Shown here piece by piece: positions 1-44,325 of a stretch of 45,677 nucleotides of DNA (the first letter of the stretch is position 1; the number at the start of each line of letters is the position of its first letter). The stretch lies in IMG/VR virus record IMGVR_UViG_3300048586_000887, positions 1 to 45,677 of that record. One strand, written 5' to 3'. The notes under the pieces are model-generated. The model saw nothing but the letters and a program-made list of their open reading frames with translations, did no database searches and was not told where the DNA came from. Source of the stretch: a virus. The position numbers and the translations under genes were made by a program.

Positions 1-2055
1 TTCGTCCTCGATGCCTACGGCAACTACTCCTACCGCGTGGAGGAGATCCGCTTCGCCGACGGGACCGTCTGGGACTACGACGACATCCTCACCTTCGTCA
101 CCACTGGCACCAGCGGCAACGACACCTTGTACGGTGATGAAGCCAGCAACGCCTTTGGCGGCACCGACGGCAATGACTGGCTGTATGGCCGCAATGGCAA
201 CGACACCCTGGAGGGTGGCGATGGCGCCGACACGCTGGAGGGTGGCGAAGGCGACGATCTGCTGAAGGGTGGTGCGGGCAATGACAGCCTGTTCGGCGGT
301 ACCAGCATCTACAACACCGCCGGCAACGACACGCTGGACGGCGGCATCGGCAACGACACGCTCAGCGCCGGCAAGGGCGACGATGTCTACCTCTTCGCCC
401 GCGGTGACGGCCAGGATCGCATCGTCGAGACCGCCGGCAACGACGCCATCGCCTTCGCCGAGGGCATCCTGCCAGGCGAGGTCGCTGTTTTTCGCGCTGG
501 AAACAACCTCGATGACTTGGCGATATCGATCGACGGCGGTGATCAGATCATCGTCCAGGCGAATTTCACGCGCGACGCCTACGGTAACTATAGCGGCCGG
601 ATCGAAGAGATCCGCTTCGCCGATGGCACGACCTGGGACTACGCTACTATTCTCGGGCGAGCCAATGGCGCAACGTCCGGCAGCGATACGTTGGTCGGCG
701 ACCAGTTTGACAATGACCTGAGCGGCCTGGACGGCAACGATGTTATTGAAGGTCGCGATGGAAATGACCTTCTCGACGGAGGCTCTGGGAACGACAATCT
801 CAAGGGCGGGAATGGCCTCGATACGCTCCTTGGCGCCGACGGCGCCGACACGCTTGACGGTGGCGAAGGTGACGACCTGCTGCAGGGCGGTGCCGGCAAT
901 GACAGCCTGTTCGGCGGTACCAGCATCTACAACACCGCCGGCAACGACACGCTGGACGGCGGCATCGGCAACGACACGCTCAGCGCCGGCAAGGGCGACG
1001 ATGTCTACCTCTTCGCCCGCGGTGACGGCCAGGATCGCATCGTCGAGACCGCCGGCAACGACGCCATCGCCTTCGCCGAGGGCATCCTGCCAGGCGAGGT
1101 CACCCTCGCGCGCACCGGCTCCAACGCCAACGACCTGCTGATCAGCATCGCCGGTGGTGACCAGATCACCGTCGCGAGCTACTTCGTCCTCGATGCCTAC
1201 GGCAACTACTCCTACCGCGTGGAGGAGATCCGCTTCGCCGACGGGACCGTCTGGGACTACGACGACATCCTCACCTTCGTCACCACTGGCACCAGCGGCA
1301 ACGACACCCTCGTCGGTGATCAAGCTGCCAACCTGATTGAGGGATTGGATGGTAACGACACTATCCAGGGTCGCGAAGGCAACGACACGCTCGATGGTGG
1401 TCTGGGCAACGACTCGCTGATCGGCGGTACCGGCGACGATTTGTACTTCGTCGACTCACCCGTCGATGTAGTCGTGGAATCTGGGTCGCAGGGCACGGAT
1501 GAGGTGCGTGCAACGGCGGCAAGCTTCACCTTGAGTAGCAACGTGGAGCGGCTGGTCTATATCGGCGCCGGCGACTTCGCCGGCACCGGTAGTTCCGGCG
1601 CAGATACCATCATCGGCGGCGCAGGCGCGGACACCCTGCGGGGCATGGCTGGCAACGACGACCTGCGCGGCGGCGAGGGCGCCGATGTGCTGGTCGGTGG
1701 CGCCGGTGCCGACACGCTGACCGGGGGTGCTGGAGCCGACACCTTCCGGTTCGAGCTCTCGTCCGAGACAGGTACCGCTTCCGCAGCCGACCGCGTCCTC
1801 GACTTCTCGCAGGCCGATGGCGACCTGATCGATCTCTCGGCGATCGACGCGAACAGCACCGTGAGCGGCGATCAGGCATTCAGCTTCATTGGCACGGACA
1901 CCTTCGTCTCGGGCACGCGCGGCCAGCTACGCTTCGAGAATCGGGGCGATGGTAACACCTGGGTGCAGGCCGATCTCGACGGCAACATGGCGGCCGATTT
2001 CGAGATCATGCTGGCTGGAAGCCGGACGCTGACGGCCGCCGACTTCGTGCTGTAG
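1..2055 (+). CDS. RTX calcium-binding repeat protein, 3' part (5' end outside window)
   Basis: The frame is open from base 1, so the gene starts upstream; an internal GTG at 37 is not the real start. About 684 residues are visible. They are full of glycine/aspartate nonapeptides of the GGxGxDxLx type (for example GGAGNDSLFGG, GGEGADVLVGG), which in RTX proteins bind calcium and form a parallel beta-roll outside the cell. Between the arrays sit longer modules that include DDVYLFARGDGQD and VEEIRFADGT. The C-terminus (residues about 570-684) has the serralysin/RTX tail style, with ADRVLDFSQADGDLIDLS and a final ADFVL, as expected for an uncleaved type I secretion signal. Two stretches of DNA are exact direct repeats, so parts of the gene were duplicated recently. 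It runs convergently toward the phage late operon and is probably a host gene flanking the prophage; the enzymatic or adhesive role cannot be told from this part. Confidence 0.9.
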   Translation, partial: FVLDAYGNYSYRVEEIRFADGTVWDYDDILTFVTTGTSGNDTLYGDEASNAFGGTDGNDWLYGRNGNDTLEGGDGADTLEGGEGDDLLKGGAGNDSLFGGTSIYNTAGNDTLDGGIGNDTLSAGKGDDVYLFARGDGQDRIVETAGNDAIAFAEGILPGEVAVFRAGNNLDDLAISIDGGDQIIVQANFTRDAYGNYSGRIEEIRFADGTTWDYATILGRANGATSGSDTLVGDQFDNDLSGLDGNDVIEGRDGNDLLDGGSGNDNLKGGNGLDTLLGADGADTLDGGEGDDLLQGGAGNDSLFGGTSIYNTAGNDTLDGGIGNDTLSAGKGDDVYLFARGDGQDRIVETAGNDAIAFAEGILPGEVTLARTGSNANDLLISIAGGDQITVASYFVLDAYGNYSYRVEEIRFADGTVWDYDDILTFVTTGTSGNDTLVGDQAANLIEGLDGNDTIQGREGNDTLDGGLGNDSLIGGTGDDLYFVDSPVDVVVESGSQGTDEVRATAASFTLSSNVERLVYIGAGDFAGTGSSGADTIIGGAGADTLRGMAGNDDLRGGEGADVLVGGAGADTLTGGAGADTFRFELSSETGTASAADRVLDFSQADGDLIDLSAIDANSTVSGDQAFSFIGTDTFVSGTRGQLRFENRGDGNTWVQADLDGNMAADFEIMLAGSRTLTAADFVL

Positions 2056-6469: not shown

Positions 6470-7047
6470 CAGCTGGCCGGCAGCCGGATCTCCGCCTCCT
6501 GCAGGGCGGGCACGAACTCGAAGAAGCGATCGCCCGGGTATTCTGCCTGCTGATCGGCATCGGTGTAGCGGCGCACTTCGGCGCGCTCGAGGTCCACGAG
6601 CCGGCTCTCGCAGGTGAGCGAGATGCGCGGCTCGGCGCCGTCCACCACCTCCATCGTGTCCATCAGCCCGGCCCACAAAGGAAACGGGGCGGCGACAAAG
6701 GCGCCCTCGGCATCGAGCAGCCCGCCCCAGAGACGGGCAGTGCGCAGCCGAAAGCTCCGCTCGGCGAGCGCGATGTCCACGACCGCCTGCGGCACCGGCG
6801 ACAGCGCAAGGGTCAGGCGCACGGCGCGGATTTCCGTCGTTTCCTCGATCTCGCCGACGGCGCCGAGCGATCCCACCCCCTCGAACACCATCCCCGCCCA
6901 GTGCAGCTGCCCGAGCCCGGTCCAGGCGCGAAAGGCGCCGGAGGCGAAGTCGAGATCGACCAGGATGATCGGCGTGGCGACCGGCGCGGTGGCGGCAGCC
7001 GCCGCCTGGAGCGAGAGTCGCGGCGTCGCCGCAATGCCGTCCGTCAT
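6469..7047 (-). CDS. Minor tail / tip hub protein
   Basis: A 192-residue protein starting at ATG 7047, four bases inside the end of the preceding gene (ATGA). Recognisable blocks are LHWAGMVFEGVGSLG, EIEETTEIRAVRLTL and RYTDADQQAEYPGDRFFEF, a pattern I know from alphaproteobacterial siphophages for the protein between the distal tail protein and the NlpC/P60-like protein. By position it is comparable to lambda gpL-type hub proteins. There is no signal peptide or membrane segment. Function is inferred from position and family style. Confidence 0.65.
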   Translation of the reverse strand: MTDGIAATPRLSLQAAAAATAPVATPIILVDLDFASGAFRAWTGLGQLHWAGMVFEGVGSLGAVGEIEETTEIRAVRLTLALSPVPQAVVDIALAERSFRLRTARLWGGLLDAEGAFVAAPFPLWAGLMDTMEVVDGAEPRISLTCESRLVDLERAEVRRYTDADQQAEYPGDRFFEFVPALQEAEIRLPAS

Positions 7048-7733
7048 GGCAGCGCTTCCTCCAGGCGGACGGTGATGGCCGTAAAGCGCCCCGGCCGGGT
7101 CGGGTTGATGCCCTCATCGTCCGAGACGAGCCGCATCGCCACGGTGGGCTGGGTCAGCACCAGCGGTTCCGACACCGCGGTGGGTGCGCGCAGCGGCGGG
7201 CCGATCGGGATGGTCGCGATGCCGCTGCCGGAGGCGGTGACCGTCTCCGTCGCCATATAGAGCCGGCCGGCGAGGCCGATATGGTCGCCGGCGCCGACCG
7301 CGACCGCGTTCGGCCACCAGCCCTGGGTCTGGATGGTGAGTGCCCCGCGGGTGGCGCCCGCCGCCAGCGCCGGATTGCCCGAGCCCACCACCAGCCCGGT
7401 CCCGTCCGTGAAGATGGTGCTGTCGGAGAAGGAGTACGGCCCGGTCGGCACATCGCCTTGGCTGCGGGGATCACCGGTGCGGTATTCGCGGCGCCAGTCC
7501 CAGATGCGGACCGTGTTGGCGGAGCCCGCCAGCGCCGCCAGCAGCCCCTCCAGCACACCGGCGCGGATCCGATCCAGCGGATCGAAGGTAGCCTCGGCCA
7601 TCCAGCGGGCGCCCTCCCGCCGCATCACCTGCGTGACGCGGGTGATGGGCGAGGCAAAGCGCAGCGTGTTGTGCTGCAGATAGAAGCTCAGCCGCGAGGG
7701 TCGCAGCGCGGCGGGCCAGGCGTATTCGGTCAT
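7044..7733 (-). CDS. Minor tail protein downstream of tape measure
   Basis: The start is ATG 7733 (MTEYAWPAALRPSR), eight bases after the tape measure stop, giving 229 residues. A longer open frame upstream overlaps the tape measure gene and is rejected. Visible blocks are RVTQVMRREGARWMAEATFDP, followed by a beta-rich middle with many glycines and a C-terminal AMRLVSDDEGIN. Such proteins just after the tape measure usually form the distal tail ring or baseplate (lambda gpM/gpL position). No specific domain could be named. Its stop overlaps the start of the next tail gene by four bases, so the two are probably translationally coupled. Confidence 0.65.
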   Translation of the reverse strand: MTEYAWPAALRPSRLSFYLQHNTLRFASPITRVTQVMRREGARWMAEATFDPLDRIRAGVLEGLLAALAGSANTVRIWDWRREYRTGDPRSQGDVPTGPYSFSDSTIFTDGTGLVVGSGNPALAAGATRGALTIQTQGWWPNAVAVGAGDHIGLAGRLYMATETVTASGSGIATIPIGPPLRAPTAVSEPLVLTQPTVAMRLVSDDEGINPTRPGRFTAITVRLEEALP

Positions 7734-22136: not shown

Positions 22137-22382
22137 ATGGCCACGACGGTCACAACCAAGGGTCAGGTCACCATCCCCAAGGAGGTCCGCGACCTGCTGG
22201 GTATCAAGCCGGGCAGTGCCGTCACCTTCGAGGTGGCCGAGGACGGCCGCGTGGTGCTCAACAAGGCTGGACGGCGCGGCCCACCGGCACGGCCCCCGAG
22301 CCGCTTTGCCAAGCTGCGCGGCACTGCCACCGCCGGCATGACGACTGAAAAGATCATGGCACTGACCCGCGGCGAGGAATGA
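22137..22382 (+). CDS. AbrB/SpoVT-fold antitoxin
   Basis: The 81-residue protein starts MATTVTTKGQVTIPKEVRDL, a textbook AbrB/SpoVT swapped-hairpin DNA-binding domain, followed by LGIKPGSAVTFEVAEDGRVV. The C-terminal 40 residues (RPPSRFAKLRGTATAGMTT) probably wrap the toxin. ATG at 22137 is preceded by CAGGAG with good spacing. It overlaps nothing and its stop is one base before the toxin GTG, so both are made from one message. Such antitoxins neutralise the toxin and repress their own promoter. Confidence 0.88.
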   Translation: MATTVTTKGQVTIPKEVRDLLGIKPGSAVTFEVAEDGRVVLNKAGRRGPPARPPSRFAKLRGTATAGMTTEKIMALTRGEE

Positions 22383-22383
22383 G

Positions 22384-22788
22384 GTGACTCTCGTCGACAC
22401 CAACATCCTGCTCGACCTGGTCACCAACAACACGACCTGGGCTGACTGGTCACAGCGACAATTGGAAGCTGCCGCCGTGCGTGGGCCGGTGGTGATCAAC
22501 GACGTGGTCTATGCCGAGCTCTCCGTGGGCTTCCTCCGCATGGAGGAGGTCAATGACCTCCTCGCGGCGGCTCAGGTGGAAGCCGCACCGATTCCTCGCG
22601 AGGCGTTGTTCCTGGCTGGCAAGGTGTTCCAACGCTATCGGGCCGGCGGCGGAACGCGCACGGGCGTGCTGCCGGATTTCTTCATTGGCGCGCATGCGGC
22701 GGTGGCGCAGCTGCCGTTGCTGACTCGCGATGTGCGCCGCTACCGCACGTATTTTCCGACCGTACAGCTGATCGCGCCCATCGACTGA
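22384..22788 (+). CDS. vapC: PIN-domain ribonuclease toxin, VapC-like
   Basis: A 134-residue PIN domain protein starting at GTG 22384. The acidic active site residues are visible: Asp5 (LVDTNILLD), Glu45 (VVYAELSVG), Asp98 (VLPDFFIGAH) and Asp116 (LTRDVRRY). VapC toxins are Mg-dependent RNases that cut initiator tRNA or rRNA. It is paired with the AbrB-type antitoxin one base upstream. The pair sits on the plus strand between portal and gpW genes, against the direction of the late operon, and probably serves plasmid-like maintenance of the prophage or defence against other phages. Confidence 0.88.
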   Translation: MTLVDTNILLDLVTNNTTWADWSQRQLEAAAVRGPVVINDVVYAELSVGFLRMEEVNDLLAAAQVEAAPIPREALFLAGKVFQRYRAGGGTRTGVLPDFFIGAHAAVAQLPLLTRDVRRYRTYFPTVQLIAPID

Positions 22789-29900: not shown

Positions 29901-30689
29901 TCAGTCGGCGTCGCAGGAGATTTTCCAGTAGCTGAGCACGTCTCGAACTTGCTGCCGCGGATAGAACTGACCCGCGTGCTTCAGGTCATGACGGATCGCA
30001 TGGAGTCGCTTCTTGGCCTGCGCCTCGATGGCCGGTGTCAGCTCGACGAGACCGCGCGGCCTCTTTCCATCGCCAGCGTGGCGCGGCCAGCTCTCTGGAT
30101 AACTCGGCCAGTCCGTCCACTTGTCGAGGGCTGCATTGACGTCAGCCATTGCGTCGTGATCGCACTGCCAGCCGTACAGACTGCGAGCGCAGATGCGCAG
30201 CATCGCCTTCACGTCCGCCATGCTGTCGGTGAATGCCTTCAGCGGCGTCGGCAGCAGAACCATGTTGGCGACGCACGAGAAGAATCTGCGATCCTGCACA
30301 ACCACGTTGGAACGCTGGTAAGTCGCGTCGTCCACACCCCAAATGTGGCAACATGACCAATTGGGCCGATCTGCTTTCCGTAAGCCAAGCGCTAACGTGA
30401 GAGCCTTGTTTGCGTTGACGTTGCCCTCGACCTTATGCGTCGACACCTTAGTCGTCTGCTTGATGTTCATCTGTGGTTCAGACCAATCGCCCTTATAGAA
30501 CGGCTGAGCACGGGCATGGTCCGGATACCAGACTGGCAAGAGTCTGAACGTCTCAGGGGCGACCCATCGTGCTGTTCGTTCAATGAGAGACGCGATCTCA
30601 CCGATGCCGATCTCCGCACGCAACGCGGCGAGACCGTCGAGCGGGACCCGGCGCTGCTGCTTGGTCCTGTGGCCTCCTGCTTCAATCAT
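29901..30689 (-). CDS. HNH-like nuclease-family protein, unknown role
   Basis: 262 residues from ATG 30689 (GTG 30698 is an alternative). Around residues 110-150 it reads SCCHIWGVDD and, later, CVANMVLLPTPLKAFTDS: the CHIW...ANLVLLP pattern I associate with HNH-like restriction or homing-type nucleases, where His115 and Asn142 would be the motif. Its base composition is less GC-rich than the neighbours, suggesting separate acquisition. It lies upstream of the methylase pair on the same strand and might be the cutting half of a restriction-modification system, or an unrelated cargo gene. No further domain is visible; this reading is tentative. Confidence 0.5.
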   Translation of the reverse strand: MIEAGGHRTKQQRRVPLDGLAALRAEIGIGEIASLIERTARWVAPETFRLLPVWYPDHARAQPFYKGDWSEPQMNIKQTTKVSTHKVEGNVNANKALTLALGLRKADRPNWSCCHIWGVDDATYQRSNVVVQDRRFFSCVANMVLLPTPLKAFTDSMADVKAMLRICARSLYGWQCDHDAMADVNAALDKWTDWPSYPESWPRHAGDGKRPRGLVELTPAIEAQAKKRLHAIRHDLKHAGQFYPRQQVRDVLSYWKISCDAD

Positions 30690-30737
30690 CGTTAGCACGT
30701 CGTGTAGGACTCCATTTGCTTTGTTCCGTTTGAAATT

Positions 30738-39159: not shown

Positions 39160-39999
39160 TCACCCCTGGGCGCTGGTGTGGGCGTTGATCTTGCGAAGCA
39201 GGGCGGCGAGGTCGGCCGGCTCGGTCTCGTCGAGGCGGCCGGAGCGGTCTTTCGCGGGGAGCGCAAAGGCATTGCCGGCGCGGCAGACCAGGCGGCGATC
39301 GGTCCCGCGCTCCGGGTCGTAGCGCCAGCCGGCGCCCTCGCGGCTGAACAGCCCCATGGTGACGACCTGATCGACGATGCCGGGCAGTTCGCGCGCCGCC
39401 TTGCCGCCTTCCATCTGCGGCTGCCAGGTGACCTTCCCGAACTCGTCGGTCACCTTCTCCAGGATGCCGACCATGATGGTGGTCTTGCCCGATGCATGCT
39501 GGAGGTGCTTCAGCAGGCCGATGACCTCGCGCGCGAGCAGGCCATAGGCGCCGCGGGTGTCGGGCTTGCCGGTCTTTTCGGAGAAGGCCTCCGGCCGCAG
39601 CTTGGCCCAGGTCATCGCCTGGCGCGTCAGATCGGTGATGCTGTCGAGGAAGACGATCGACTTCCTGGCGAGCAGCCGCACCAGGTCCGGATGCGCCGCG
39701 GCGAGGTGCTGGTAGTGCCCTTCCGAGAAGAAGCCGTTCGGGTCGGCGGCCGGATTCACGCCGCCGACGAGACAGGCGATGTCGATGGCGTCCTCGAAGC
39801 AGCGCACGGGGATGCTGTCGCCCGGCCAGTCCTGGACCGATTTCATCCCCGCCTCGAGGTCGATGCAGATGGTCTCGGCCGGCGGAAGGGTCTTGAGCTG
39901 CGTGGTCTTGCCCACGCCGCTGGGGCCGAACAACGCCAGGGTGGTCTTGTTAGCCGCGCGCGACAGGCGCTCATCGGCGGTGACGATACGCAGCGCCAT
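39160..39999 (-). CDS. RecA-like AAA ATPase (Sak4-type candidate)
   Basis: 279 residues. The P-loop is LFGPSGVGKTTQLKTL (Walker A about residues 25-33), and Walker B is SIVFLDSITDLTRQ, with a downstream TIMVGILEKVTDEFG strand. The design fits the small RecA-fold phage ATPases such as Sak4, which promote strand annealing in phage recombination together with a single-stranded DNA-binding protein. The stop is five bases from the preferred start of the next gene, and the start is one base inside the upstream stop. The exact family is not proven from sequence alone. Confidence 0.75.
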   Translation of the reverse strand: MALRIVTADERLSRAANKTTLALFGPSGVGKTTQLKTLPPAETICIDLEAGMKSVQDWPGDSIPVRCFEDAIDIACLVGGVNPAADPNGFFSEGHYQHLAAAHPDLVRLLARKSIVFLDSITDLTRQAMTWAKLRPEAFSEKTGKPDTRGAYGLLAREVIGLLKHLQHASGKTTIMVGILEKVTDEFGKVTWQPQMEGGKAARELPGIVDQVVTMGLFSREGAGWRYDPERGTDRRLVCRAGNAFALPAKDRSGRLDETEPADLAALLRKINAHTSAQG

Positions 40000-40989: not shown

Positions 40990-41550
40990 TCACGACCTCG
41001 ACGCGGTGAAGGCGGAGGGATGCGCGCCCGCCGCACGGAGCCAGCAGCGGAGATCGGCAAGGGCGCGATAGAAGGTCGCGGACGACACCCCGCTCGCGTC
41101 ACGCGCATCGACGACGTCGCGATGCGCGACGATCAAGCCGAGCAGGGCCTGCGAAGCCCCCGGCAGTTCGATGGCGGCGCGGCGTAGCGCGATCGGCAGA
41201 TCGGGATCGAACCAGGCCGCGGAGAGCGTGCTGGCAATGCCGTGGCCGTCGTTGCCGTCGAGCGGGACGGTGTCGATCGACGCCGGCGCCCGCGCACGAT
41301 CGATGACCACGTGCTGGGCGAGCAGGCTGACGAAGGTCGACCAGGAGGCCCGTCTCGAATCGTAGCGGTCGGCCGCCTCGACGATGGCGAGCAGGATGTC
41401 CTGAGTCAGGTCCTCCCGATCCGCCCTGCTCAGACGCCGGTGCCGGGCGAAGCGGCGGGCATGGTGACGGGCGGATGCCAGCGCCACTCGGATACGATGA
41501 TTGTCCCAGTTCTGGGGATTCTCTGCCTGTCGGGACTGTTGCTCGGGCAC
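40990..41550 (-). CDS. Sigma-70-like (ECF-type) RNA polymerase factor
   Basis: The GTG at 41550 has AAGGA eight bases upstream and is preferred over the TTG at 41589; it gives 186 residues. Residues about 30-85 resemble sigma region 2 (ARRFARHRRLSRADREDLTQ, then DILLAIVEAADRYDSR and WSTFVSLLAQHVVIDRAR), and the C-terminal HTH is SGVSSATFYRALADLRCWLR, as in region 4. It has no anti-sigma partner nearby. Position at the start of the minus-strand early operon, next to the divergent control region, suggests it directs expression of later phage genes, but it may be degenerate. Confidence 0.68.
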   Translation of the reverse strand: MPEQQSRQAENPQNWDNHRIRVALASARHHARRFARHRRLSRADREDLTQDILLAIVEAADRYDSRRASWSTFVSLLAQHVVIDRARAPASIDTVPLDGNDGHGIASTLSAAWFDPDLPIALRRAAIELPGASQALLGLIVAHRDVVDARDASGVSSATFYRALADLRCWLRAAGAHPSAFTASRS

Positions 41551-41839
41551 GGTGCGGATCCTTGGCTGAGGCGGCTGCGATGACCTCAAGCCAGCACGGC
41601 GTTCCCCGGGGCGACGAGGGCGGAAAGGTGCCGAATGGGGCGGAAATGTCCCCGATCAATTTCCGCACCTAAGTCGTTTCAATGCTTTAGATGCGTGGCG
41701 GCGCCTCCTCGCGCTCGAGAGGTGCGGAATTCCGATTTGCGCACCACCCCGGCAAAGGAGCGCTGGACGTCGCACGAGTCGGGAACATAATGTGAACATA
41801 CACGTTGCCGAAACGCGGCTTCCTGAGGACCACACTCCT
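41551..41839. promoter_or_regulatory. Divergent control region between early operon and ImmA/XRE operon
   Basis: These 289 bases separate the sigma-like gene (minus) and the ImmA gene (plus) and contain no gene. TTCCGCACCT at 41661-41670 and AGGTGCGGAA at 41720-41729 form a perfect 10-base inverted repeat spaced by 49 bases; GGTGCG (41721-41726) is also paired with CGCACC (41740-41745). These are good operator candidates for the XRE regulator. A LexA-type box lies nearer the ImmA start. Confidence 0.6.
41783..41797 (+). promoter_or_regulatory. LexA-type SOS box GAAC-N7-GAAC
   Basis: GAACATAATGTGAAC at 41783-41797 exactly fits GAAC-N7-GAAC, the direct-repeat operator of alphaproteobacterial LexA. 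It lies 42 bases before the preferred ImmA ATG, a typical place for promoter control. One such match to eight fixed bases can arise by chance in a large genome, but not often at a lysogeny promoter. Confidence 0.65.
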
Positions 41840-42568
41840 ATGACACTGACCATCGACTACGCCTGCCGACCGGGGAGCGCGGCGCCACGCCCGCTCGCCG
41901 TGGCCGCCATCCGGGCGGTCGCCGGACAGGTGCGCCAGCAGATCCCGCGCGAGCCGAGCGAGCTCGCGCTATCTCTCGCTGCGTTGGTGGATGCCAGTCG
42001 AGACGTGGCAGTGAACGGGCGCCGGCTGCTGGTGTCCTGGGATATCTCGGGCGCGCTGCAGGACGAGATGGACCGGCCGGTGCTCGGCCTGTGTGATACC
42101 GATCCCGCTGAGCCGGATTGGGTCTTTCTGGCGGTCAACGGACCGATGACCGCCCATCGCCCAGATCTGGCGCTCAGCACTGCCGCGCATGAGCTCGGGC
42201 ATCTGGTGTTCGACGTGCCAGCCGCCCTGGACGGCGGTCCGCGGCGCTATCGTGCCGTCGCCACCTCGCCGCAGGCGCTCGACCGCGCAGGCCGCGGTGC
42301 GGAGGGACGAGCGAATGAGTTCATGGGGGCGCTGTTGGCGCCACCCGTGCCGCTGCACACGCGGTTGCTGGCCCATGCCCGTGGCGAGGGGTTGCGGTTG
42401 GCACGCGGACCACATCAGGGCCGGCCGGGCAGCCCCGTCCTTGCCTCCGGCAACCCACAGGACGCCGTCGCCGGCATCATGGCGGCCCTGGCCGGGGATT
42501 TCGGCGTGTCGGAACGGTTCATCGCCGTGCGCCTGGCGCGCTACGGCCTTATCCAGGGAGAGGTGTGA
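41840..42568 (+). CDS. ImmA/IrrE family metallopeptidase
   Basis: ATG 41840 has TGAGGA ten bases upstream and gives 242 residues; GTG 41792 is possible but would overlap the LexA-type box. The zinc motif is STAAHELGHLVFD (His117, Glu118, His121), with a third ligand likely in GRGAEGRANEFMGALLAP (Glu160). ImmA-type proteases cleave the immunity repressor of mobile elements or, in related cases, phage repressors when induced by DNA damage. The gene is directly followed by an XRE regulator, the classical ImmR/ImmA-type pair, and preceded by an SOS-type box. This suggests protease-controlled induction. Confidence 0.85.
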   Translation: MTLTIDYACRPGSAAPRPLAVAAIRAVAGQVRQQIPREPSELALSLAALVDASRDVAVNGRRLLVSWDISGALQDEMDRPVLGLCDTDPAEPDWVFLAVNGPMTAHRPDLALSTAAHELGHLVFDVPAALDGGPRRYRAVATSPQALDRAGRGAEGRANEFMGALLAPPVPLHTRLLAHARGEGLRLARGPHQGRPGSPVLASGNPQDAVAGIMAALAGDFGVSERFIAVRLARYGLIQGEV

Positions 42569-42849
42569 TGGCGTTTGGGGCAGCGGTTCGCGCCCGGCGC
42601 ACGGAGTTGCGCATCGGGCTCAACGACATGGCGGAGCGGATGGGCATCTCGCCCGGCTACTGGTCGCGCGTCGAACGGGAGATCGAGAAGCCACCCAGTG
42701 ACGAGCTCGTGCAGCGCGCCGCGGCCATTCTCGGCATCCAGCTCGACGACCTGTTCGTGGAGGCGCAGCGCCTGCCGCCCGATATGCGACGGGACATCGG
42801 GAAGGTGGTGCTCGCTTATCGGCGGATGCGCCCGTTCGCCGCTGGCTGA
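42568..42849 (+). CDS. XRE-family HTH regulator, candidate repressor
   Basis: ATG 42568 overlaps the ImmA stop by one base and gives 93 residues (GTG 42565 would add one). A Cro/CI HTH is clear: FGAAVRARRTELRIGLNDMA, ERMGISPGYWSRVEREIEKP, then LVQRAAAILGIQLDDLF. It is small, without the extended C-terminal dimerisation or cleavage domain of LexA-like CI. Co-transcribed with ImmA, it is the likely ImmR-type substrate and repressor of the divergent operators. Confidence 0.82.
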   Translation: MAFGAAVRARRTELRIGLNDMAERMGISPGYWSRVEREIEKPPSDELVQRAAAILGIQLDDLFVEAQRLPPDMRRDIGKVVLAYRRMRPFAAG

Positions 42850-42859
42850 GGAACGTGAC

Positions 42860-43525
42860 ATGGCGACGCGGCCCAAACACAAACGCTTCTTCAGCATCGA
42901 CGACGTCGGCGCTCATTTCGGTCTGTCGCTCGTCGACATGGGGGTCATGGCGGCCGAGGGGCAACTGCGGCTCAGTGTCCCGGTTGCTGGCCTGCGCGTC
43001 GAAATTGGCGACTGGGAGGAGGACGGCGATGGGCGGGGATTCAGGATCCCGGCTGGCTTTCGCATGCTGAATGGCCTGGTCGATCTCTACCCCGTCGATG
43101 GCTGGACCATCTTGCGCAACGGCACCGGTGTCGTGCACGCACTGCCGACAGAAGGTGCTGGGTATATGAGCATCGAAACCGGCAATCCGGATCAGGCGGG
43201 CCTGTTGGTGACGCGCGATGAACTCGGGGTGCGTCGTGAAGAATGGCGTCGTCTTGAAGCGCAGGACGTTGATCACGAGGCGGATGCGCCTGTCCGTTCT
43301 CGCCGCGGGGTCCAACCGACCCATGATTGGGATGCCGCAAGGCTGGAAGCGTGCCGGCTGTTCTATTTTGAAGGCGTGCCGGAATCCCAGGCAGCCCTGA
43401 TCCGCCACATGCAGGCCTGGTTCGCGTCCAAGGGGCTCAAGGTGCCCGATGACAGCACCTTGAAGCGCCGCCTTCGCGATGTGTGGGCGATGTTCGGCCC
43501 GGAAGCGAAGAAGCGCGCCGCCTGA
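42860..43525 (+). CDS. Prophage protein of unknown function, possible DNA-binding C-terminus
   Basis: ATG 42860 has TGAGGAA six bases upstream; 221 residues. The first 45 residues include FFSIDDVGAHFGLSLVDMGV, which looks HTH-like (MerR/excisionase-style), followed by a beta-rich middle (LYPVDGWTILRNGTGVVHAL). The end contains SQAALIRHMQAWFASKGLKV and DSTLKRRLRDVWAMFG, a winged-helix-like element often seen in prophage genes. Position after the repressor and before the integration genes is compatible with a role in excision or regulation; not recognised. Confidence 0.58.
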   Translation: MATRPKHKRFFSIDDVGAHFGLSLVDMGVMAAEGQLRLSVPVAGLRVEIGDWEEDGDGRGFRIPAGFRMLNGLVDLYPVDGWTILRNGTGVVHALPTEGAGYMSIETGNPDQAGLLVTRDELGVRREEWRRLEAQDVDHEADAPVRSRRGVQPTHDWDAARLEACRLFYFEGVPESQAALIRHMQAWFASKGLKVPDDSTLKRRLRDVWAMFGPEAKKRAA

Positions 43526-43535
43526 TCGTCACGTG

Positions 43536-43567
43536 CTGCGCGGCGCCGTGAGAACGACGCCGCGCAG
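43536..43567 (+). terminator. Hairpin between regulatory genes and integration genes
   Basis: CTGCGCGGCG (43536-43545) pairs perfectly with CGCCGCGCAG (43558-43567) around a 12-base loop, ten bases after a stop codon. No T-run follows. It may end or attenuate the ImmA/XRE transcript before the recombinase block. Confidence 0.4.
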
Positions 43568-43603
43568 ATCCGTAGATGAGGGGCAGGACGACTGTGGATC
43601 GCC

Positions 43604-43813
43604 ATGCCCCCCACACCGATCAATCATCACCTTGCACCCCACCTCCGCGAGGTCTGCGACCTCCTTGCCCGCGGCCTGCTGCGGCTGCGCAGCCGCGCTG
43701 CCGAGGATGTTGCGCGCGACGCGAAACAGGCCCGGGAGCCGGGAGAGGTTCGCCTACACTCGACCGCCAGGCAGCGCCGTCATGCGAACCCCAGGAGAAA
43801 GGGAGTCGCATGA
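43604..43813 (+). CDS. Small protein linked to DUF2924-recombinase cassette
   Basis: 69 residues, starting MPPTPINHHLAPHLREVCDL and ending RQRRHANPRRKGVA. The pattern LREVCDLLARGLLRLRSRAA is conserved in front of DUF2924 and recombinase genes in alphaproteobacteria. Its stop overlaps the DUF2924 ATG by four bases, which supports a translated reading frame. Function unknown; very basic C-terminus suggests nucleic acid binding. Confidence 0.58.
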   Translation: MPPTPINHHLAPHLREVCDLLARGLLRLRSRAAEDVARDAKQAREPGEVRLHSTARQRRHANPRRKGVA

Positions 43814-44325
43814 CCAGACGATCAGCCACGAAGGCGAAGCAGCAGGATGCCGCGCTGCCGGCAGCCACCATCCCGAAGATCCCGCCGGCGCAGGTGCTGC
43901 CGCGGCTGGCTGCCCTGAAGACGGCGCCAATCGCGCAGCTGAAGCAGCAGTGGCGGGAGCTGTTCGGGAAGGAGCCGCCGCCGTTCAGCCGCAGCTACAT
44001 CACCAGCCGCCTCGCCTACCGGGTCCAGGAACTGGCCTATGGCGGCCTGAAACCCGAGACCCGGGCGCGGCTGGAGGCGCTAGGCGAGCAGCTGGACGGC
44101 GGCAATGTCGTCCTGCGCCGCATCCGTGCCGACAGCCGACCGCTGCCGGGCACGCGGTTGATCCGTGAACATGATGGCGTCCAGCATGTCGTCACCGTCC
44201 GGGCCGATGACTTCGAGTACGAGGGGCGGCCCTATCGATCGCTGTCTGCCATCGCGCGTCACATCACCGGGACGCGGTGGAATGGCTGGACCTTCTTTGG
44301 GCTGAAGGGGAGGCCAGGGGCATGA
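43810..44325 (+). CDS. DUF2924 family protein
   Basis: 171 residues from ATG 43810. The DUF2924 signature includes LKQQWRELFGKEPPPFSRSY, ITSRLAYRVQELAYGG and GTRLIREHDGVQHVVTV, with a C-terminal SLSAIARHITGTRWNGWTFF. These proteins are consistently found next to large serine recombinases and may act as accessory or regulatory factors in integration. The recombinase start overlaps its stop by four bases (ATGA), so they are translationally coupled. Confidence 0.85.
   Translation: MTRRSATKAKQQDAALPAATIPKIPPAQVLPRLAALKTAPIAQLKQQWRELFGKEPPPFSRSYITSRLAYRVQELAYGGLKPETRARLEALGEQLDGGNVVLRRIRADSRPLPGTRLIREHDGVQHVVTVRADDFEYEGRPYRSLSAIARHITGTRWNGWTFFGLKGRPGA

Follow-up and report, generated by a model that had tools for sequence, protein, structure and literature searches.

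A conserved LexA-type box on the promoter of a phage protease-XRE operon points to control by host LexA

A perfect GAAC-N7-GAAC element, GAACATAATGTGAAC, lies at positions 41783..41797 on the plus strand of the window, the 45,677-nucleotide stretch of viral DNA analyzed here (IMG/VR record IMGVR_UViG_3300048586_000887, positions 1 to 45,677), at the head of a predicted operon for an M78-type metallopeptidase (immA), an XRE-family regulator (xre) and a conserved protein (g3). This box is very probably a functional operator for the LexA repressor of the host. A preliminary description of the sequence had already placed the element at these positions and proposed that LexA controls the ImmA/XRE operon; the perfect match, its strand and its position were confirmed, and the proposed control is strongly supported by comparative genomics, both by conservation of the box and by the motif found at host lexA genes. 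From these comparisons we infer that LexA binds the box and that the operon is induced in the SOS response, a regulatory layer as well supported as sequence allows. The box sits on the operon promoter and almost every relative retains it, so the exit of these phages from the host is probably coupled to the DNA-damage alarm of that host.

The motif by itself is insignificant in the window, where two matches were found against 0.61 expected per shuffled window and 12 of 100 shuffles contained at least two; the other match (30465-30479, minus strand) falls within a minus-strand ORF at 29901-30698. The box is nevertheless far beyond chance because it is conserved: 51 GAAC-N7-GAAC motifs occur in 564 kb comprising the window and 49 related viral loci, and 48 of them, the window's included, are operon-head boxes, so that conservation across loci rules out a chance origin. 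The conserved immA start codon, an ATG at 41840, lies 57 nt downstream of the box, while a longer immA ORF begins inside it at a GTG (41792) that is not a conserved start. Scanning of 41500-43900 yielded a single sigma70-like promoter, TGGACG-16-CATAAT (41764..41791, plus strand), the predicted promoter of the immA-xre-g3 operon, whose -10 element is inside the LexA box; upstream of the box, the -35-like CTGGACTC is kept in many relatives. The element has the GAAC-N7-GAAC (GTTC-N7-GTTC) sequence of an alphaproteobacterial LexA operator, overlaps a predicted promoter and recurs at the orthologous operons of relatives. The Caulobacter LexA consensus appears as GTTCN7GTTC in the available text of one report (PMC12700426).

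A scan of other ImmA/XRE loci for the same box, which the preliminary description had suggested, found it in most of them. A search with the 242-aa protease gathered 49 related viral loci, and in 44 of these a perfect box stands 31-59 nt upstream of the protease start. Three others (L043, L045 and L047), in which xre precedes immA, have the box before xre, bringing the operon-head total to 47 of 49; the box thus remains at the operon head when the gene order is reversed. The two exceptions, L003 and L032, carry damaged boxes. A second scan, made with an alignment, added 38 loci, and all 37 with upstream DNA had the box. Among alphaproteobacterial loci of named genomes it was present in 12 of 13, the exception being a Siccirubricoccus locus (L050) that holds the same prophage as L003. 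A later genome sample gave 34/37, or 30/32 when five loci of genomes already seen (L138, L155, L156, L165 and L169) were set aside; three of the 34 positives (L160-L162) were missed by the HEXXH pattern and scored by position (pattern-based count, 31/34), and the count left out second copies per genome, G566, G660 and weak matches. These sets overlap, as L050, L051, L053, L055, L056 and others duplicate prophages also present as viral contigs, and the upstream DNA of L154 is identical to that of L032. An intact box is missing from L003/L050/L155, L032/L154 and L146. Spacer and flanks differ between lineages among 42 dereplicated, mutually diverged upstream segments with the box, in which the half-sites are fully conserved because rows were selected for a perfect box. 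Another GTTC-N7-GTTC, GTTCGGCTCTTGTTC, was noticed in the related loci L080, L082, L094, L096 and L098, and also in L160; its position hardly varies, about 900 nt before immA and within the leftward early genes.

The same motif is found at host lexA genes. Of the alphaproteobacterial genomes in which a lexA match was obtained, all hosts of relatives, every one (10/10) has it ahead of lexA. In each of eight such hosts (8/8) a single GAAC-N7-GAAC lies 63-170 nt upstream of the LexA domain in the best LexA-domain gene, and two further alphaproteobacterial lexA genes with the motif are from Novosphingobium and Siccirubricoccus; a LexA domain sought in a Reyranella MAG was not found. The motif also precedes recA in five of eight hosts. 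At the best lexA locus of the five beta/gamma hosts searched it was absent (0/5); CTGT-N8-ACAG was present in two, another palindrome, which we take to be the Xanthomonas-type motif, in one, and no searched-for motif in two. The box is missing where the LexA of the host differs, as in six beta/gamma-type relatives of the phage locus (L063-L068), which have the protease and XRE genes but no box near the operon (0/6) and serve as natural controls; the beta/gamma LexA motif CTGT-N8-ACAG was sought in these six loci and not found, so that they offer no exchange of one motif for the other, which would have been the most compelling proof. The box was also absent near the operon of a single Nocardiopsis locus (0/1). 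In L063-L068 the xre-immA pair is kept beside DUF2924 and recombinase genes, in some cases with Sak4-like genes, and has no recognizable LexA box.

The first gene of the operon, immA (41840..42568, plus strand), encodes a 242-aa protein with the sequence HELGH at residues 117-121, of which H117, E118 and H121 are invariant in 24 aligned proteins. Its structure model (pLDDT 90.6) is closest in fold to CapP (Z 17.3 over 172 aa, 2.6 A) and also resembles IrrE/PprI (Z 11.8 over 148 aa, 3.2 A), so that the metalloprotease named in the preliminary description is, judged from the model, a metallopeptidase of the M78/IrrE-CapP fold with an HEXXH motif. The window protein scored 17.4 bits against Pfam M78 (PF06114), below the cut-off of 22, and this family matched 22 of 24 protease relatives at E<=0.01 (best, 1.9e-7). 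Comparison of the immA alignment profile with solved chains gave no match, though the fold search succeeded. These phages are common, since a sample of 397 genomes from one family included 37 that match the protease (2/385 in a whole-class sample), but a search of 50,697 phage records gave no relative of it; a DNA similarity search in phages and a protein similarity search in phages and plasmids likewise gave no match.

The xre gene (42568..42849, plus strand), matched in 102 of 107 loci, encodes a 93-aa HTH regulator and starts within the immA stop codon (TGATG, a one-base overlap), an adjacency of protease and XRE genes that is characteristic of CapH-CapP and ImmR-ImmA modules. Its profile matches SinR, DdrO, the ICEBs1 regulator and the HTH protein 7t5u, presumably CapH. 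No promoter for xre was found inside immA in the scan of 41500-43900 and, given the one-base overlap, SOS induction should raise repressor and protease together. The third gene, g3 (42860..43525, plus strand; phrog_13283), matched in 90/107 loci, encodes a conserved protein of 221 aa, whose model (pLDDT 87.8) had no fold match in the PDB. Directly 3' of g3 lies a strong hairpin (43526..43579, plus strand; -33.2 kcal/mol, z -3.2), which has no T run and may mark the operon end; beyond it are a DUF2924 gene and a serine recombinase gene. The DUF2924 gene is preceded by a small plus-strand ORF (43604-43813) that, on visual comparison, looks like one in the corresponding position of L046. In L029 an apparently in-frame deletion joins xre and g3 into one frame of 239 aa (6732-7448), and the LexA box is retained.

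In the window, and in loci of its type, the boxed operon runs rightward and the lytic array runs divergently leftward, headed by a sigma-70 region 2 protein (40990..41589, minus strand; PF04542, 1.1e-8) and continuing with a Sak4-like ATPase (39160..39999, minus strand) and helicase/primase, terminase, portal, capsid and tail genes. The divergent region of this type holds arrays of lineage-specific half-sites, with six related copies in the window. The inverted repeat O1 (41637..41669), GGGGCGGAAAT-N11-ATTTCCGCACC, is a candidate XRE operator. A second candidate, O2 (41721..41745), is the inverted repeat GGTGCGGAATTC..GATTTGCGCACC beside the LexA promoter, and relatives have it at similar positions. 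Half-site arrays exceeded all 12 shuffles in 17 of 33 dereplicated window-type loci and did not in the other 16. Recognition helices of XRE proteins were compared by eye with operator types; no clear rule emerged, and the matching was dropped. Between the two inverted repeats, in the window (41679-41689) and in relatives, is a conserved IHF-like element, TCAATGnnTTA, for which a relaxed match was obtained in 17/33 dereplicated loci and a strict match in 5/33. No leftward lytic promoter rose above shuffles or appeared in the consensus scan, a result that would also fit XRE or g3 as an activator.

These features suggest a switch in which a LexA operator governs the protease-XRE-g3 operon, the protease inactivates XRE and the leftward lytic array is freed, a model that we favor as a whole with somewhat better than even confidence. 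In a lysogen, host LexA would cover the -10 element and keep the three-gene operon low, and XRE would sit on the operator arrays that separate the rightward from the leftward genes. Upon DNA damage, RecA filaments would promote self-cleavage of LexA and the operon would come on; the protease, probably activated by ssDNA like CapP and PprI, would inactivate XRE, whose loss would free the leftward array, with its sigma-like factor at the head and its recombination, replication, packaging and tail genes. Damage would be read twice, transcriptionally through LexA and posttranslationally through the protease. That the protease acts on the co-encoded XRE, as the preliminary description proposed, is plausible and fairly likely, and the odds lean slightly toward XRE being the repressor of the leftward array; we infer both the cleavage of XRE and its role as lytic repressor. 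The scheme further assumes a net loss of XRE on induction despite its co-transcription with the protease, that is, the protease must outdo the co-induced XRE, as a catalyst can.

A second architecture, seen in 11 of 107 loci, bears on the most serious alternative. In these loci the early lytic genes lie downstream of the boxed operon and are co-directional with it, across gaps that are short in most inspected loci (up to ~320 nt); the box is present in 10 of the 11, the remaining one (L103) having no upstream DNA, and half-site arrays rose above shuffles in none of nine (0/9). Scans of L043 and L046 predicted no plus-strand terminator or promoter between the box and sak4. With operon and early lytic genes in the same direction, repression of lysis by LexA may be more direct than in the scheme of the preliminary description. 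LexA itself might then be the main lysogeny repressor and the boxed operon an SOS-induced lytic switch, in which XRE, g3 or both activate the divergent lytic genes of window-type loci, the protease trims XRE or has another target, and LexA represses the early lytic operon of second-architecture loci directly. The second architecture, with the apparently uninterrupted path from box to sak4 in L043 and L046, favors this reading, as do the absence of a consensus leftward promoter in window-type loci and of an internal xre promoter. We consider it rather unlikely, since many window-type loci have operator arrays flanking the switch, as expected for a phage repressor, XRE is related to repressors and, in the portions available of a source on known LexA-run phages, LexA acts jointly with a phage protein (PMC12637031). 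A broader and tentative proposal, which we doubt slightly less, is that host LexA serves as the primary lysogeny repressor for a large, uncharacterized group of temperate phages of alphaproteobacteria, through a movable module of LexA box, CapP-like protease and XRE, often with g3, that points either away from the lytic genes or in their direction; LexA/RecA and an ssDNA-activated protease would then act as independent sensors of damage joined on one promoter.

It is improbable that the box is a LexA site on a phage-carried stress or addiction-type module rather than on a lytic switch. A Brucella ZnMP/HTH-Xre pair is described, in the text available, as a putative type II toxin-antitoxin system (PMC10538038), but the operon either lies exactly between lytic array and recombinase cassette or stands first among the early genes, and the scanned proteins of the window include no other recognized repressor, where neither an S24 peptidase or LexA domain nor a LexA-type repressor was detected. 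Least probable of all is that the motif, which always adjoins the operon, is bound by a phage regulator (XRE or g3) as its operator and merely resembles the host LexA box, because the host lexA and recA genes that carry it are not regulated by XRE, its half-sites are fixed while the phage half-site arrays vary between lineages, and the beta/gamma-type relatives have XRE and protease without it.

Returning to the favored model, in which LexA governs a protease that inactivates XRE, its parts have precedents among known systems. The preliminary description had set host LexA controlling a phage protease against the usual routes of phage induction. The protease is new in this role, but LexA-controlled antirepressors exist, namely Tum of phage 186, AntC of N15 and GfoA/GftA of Gifsy phages, according to the accessible sections of one source (PMC3121763), and host LexA controlling a phage inducer is therefore not new in kind. 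In those cases, as here, a phage gene whose product is expected to disable the phage repressor is under the control of a host LexA box; Tum, AntC and GfoA/GftA are described there as binding the repressor, whereas the window gene encodes a metalloprotease-fold protein with HEXXH rather than a small nonproteolytic antirepressor, and the Gifsy antirepressor gene is placed outside the immunity region, whereas the window protease gene is part of the switch and shares a transcript with its likely target (PMC3121763, in part). The LexA motif of the window also differs from that of the 186 and Gifsy systems in being the alphaproteobacterial one. ImmR-ImmA of ICEBs1 and phages similarly pairs an XRE-family regulator with an M78 protease to control a mobile element; gene order in the window group is usually protease first, and in ICEBs1 the damage input is RecA stimulating ImmA, no LexA box on the operon being mentioned in the passages available (PMC10233336). 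The closest folds to the window protease belong to CapP-CapH of CBASS and PprI/IrrE-DdrO of Deinococcus. CapP and PprI are presented, in the available parts of two articles, as ssDNA-stimulated proteases that cleave an HTH repressor, regulating an immune operon or a repair regulon; the phage setting and the transcriptional LexA layer distinguish the present system (PMC10904395; PMC10233336). In GIL01 and CTXphi, host LexA binds the prophage directly, as is predicted here, and represses with a phage protein, a protease-XRE pair not being part of the description in the text at hand (PMC12637031). No report of LexA control of an ImmA-XRE pair was found in the open-licence literature, insofar as its texts were available. 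One conserved operon would here join two known damage-sensing routes of mobile elements, host LexA and ImmA/CapP-type proteases.

Two further features of the window were noted. Between the portal and terminase genes (22137-22785, plus strand), a MazE/AbrB-type antitoxin gene is followed by a PIN-domain gene, forming a VapBC-like pair. At the left end (37-2052, plus strand), running against the lytic genes, lies a gene for an RTX-type protein with calcium-binding repeats, which may be host flank or cargo.
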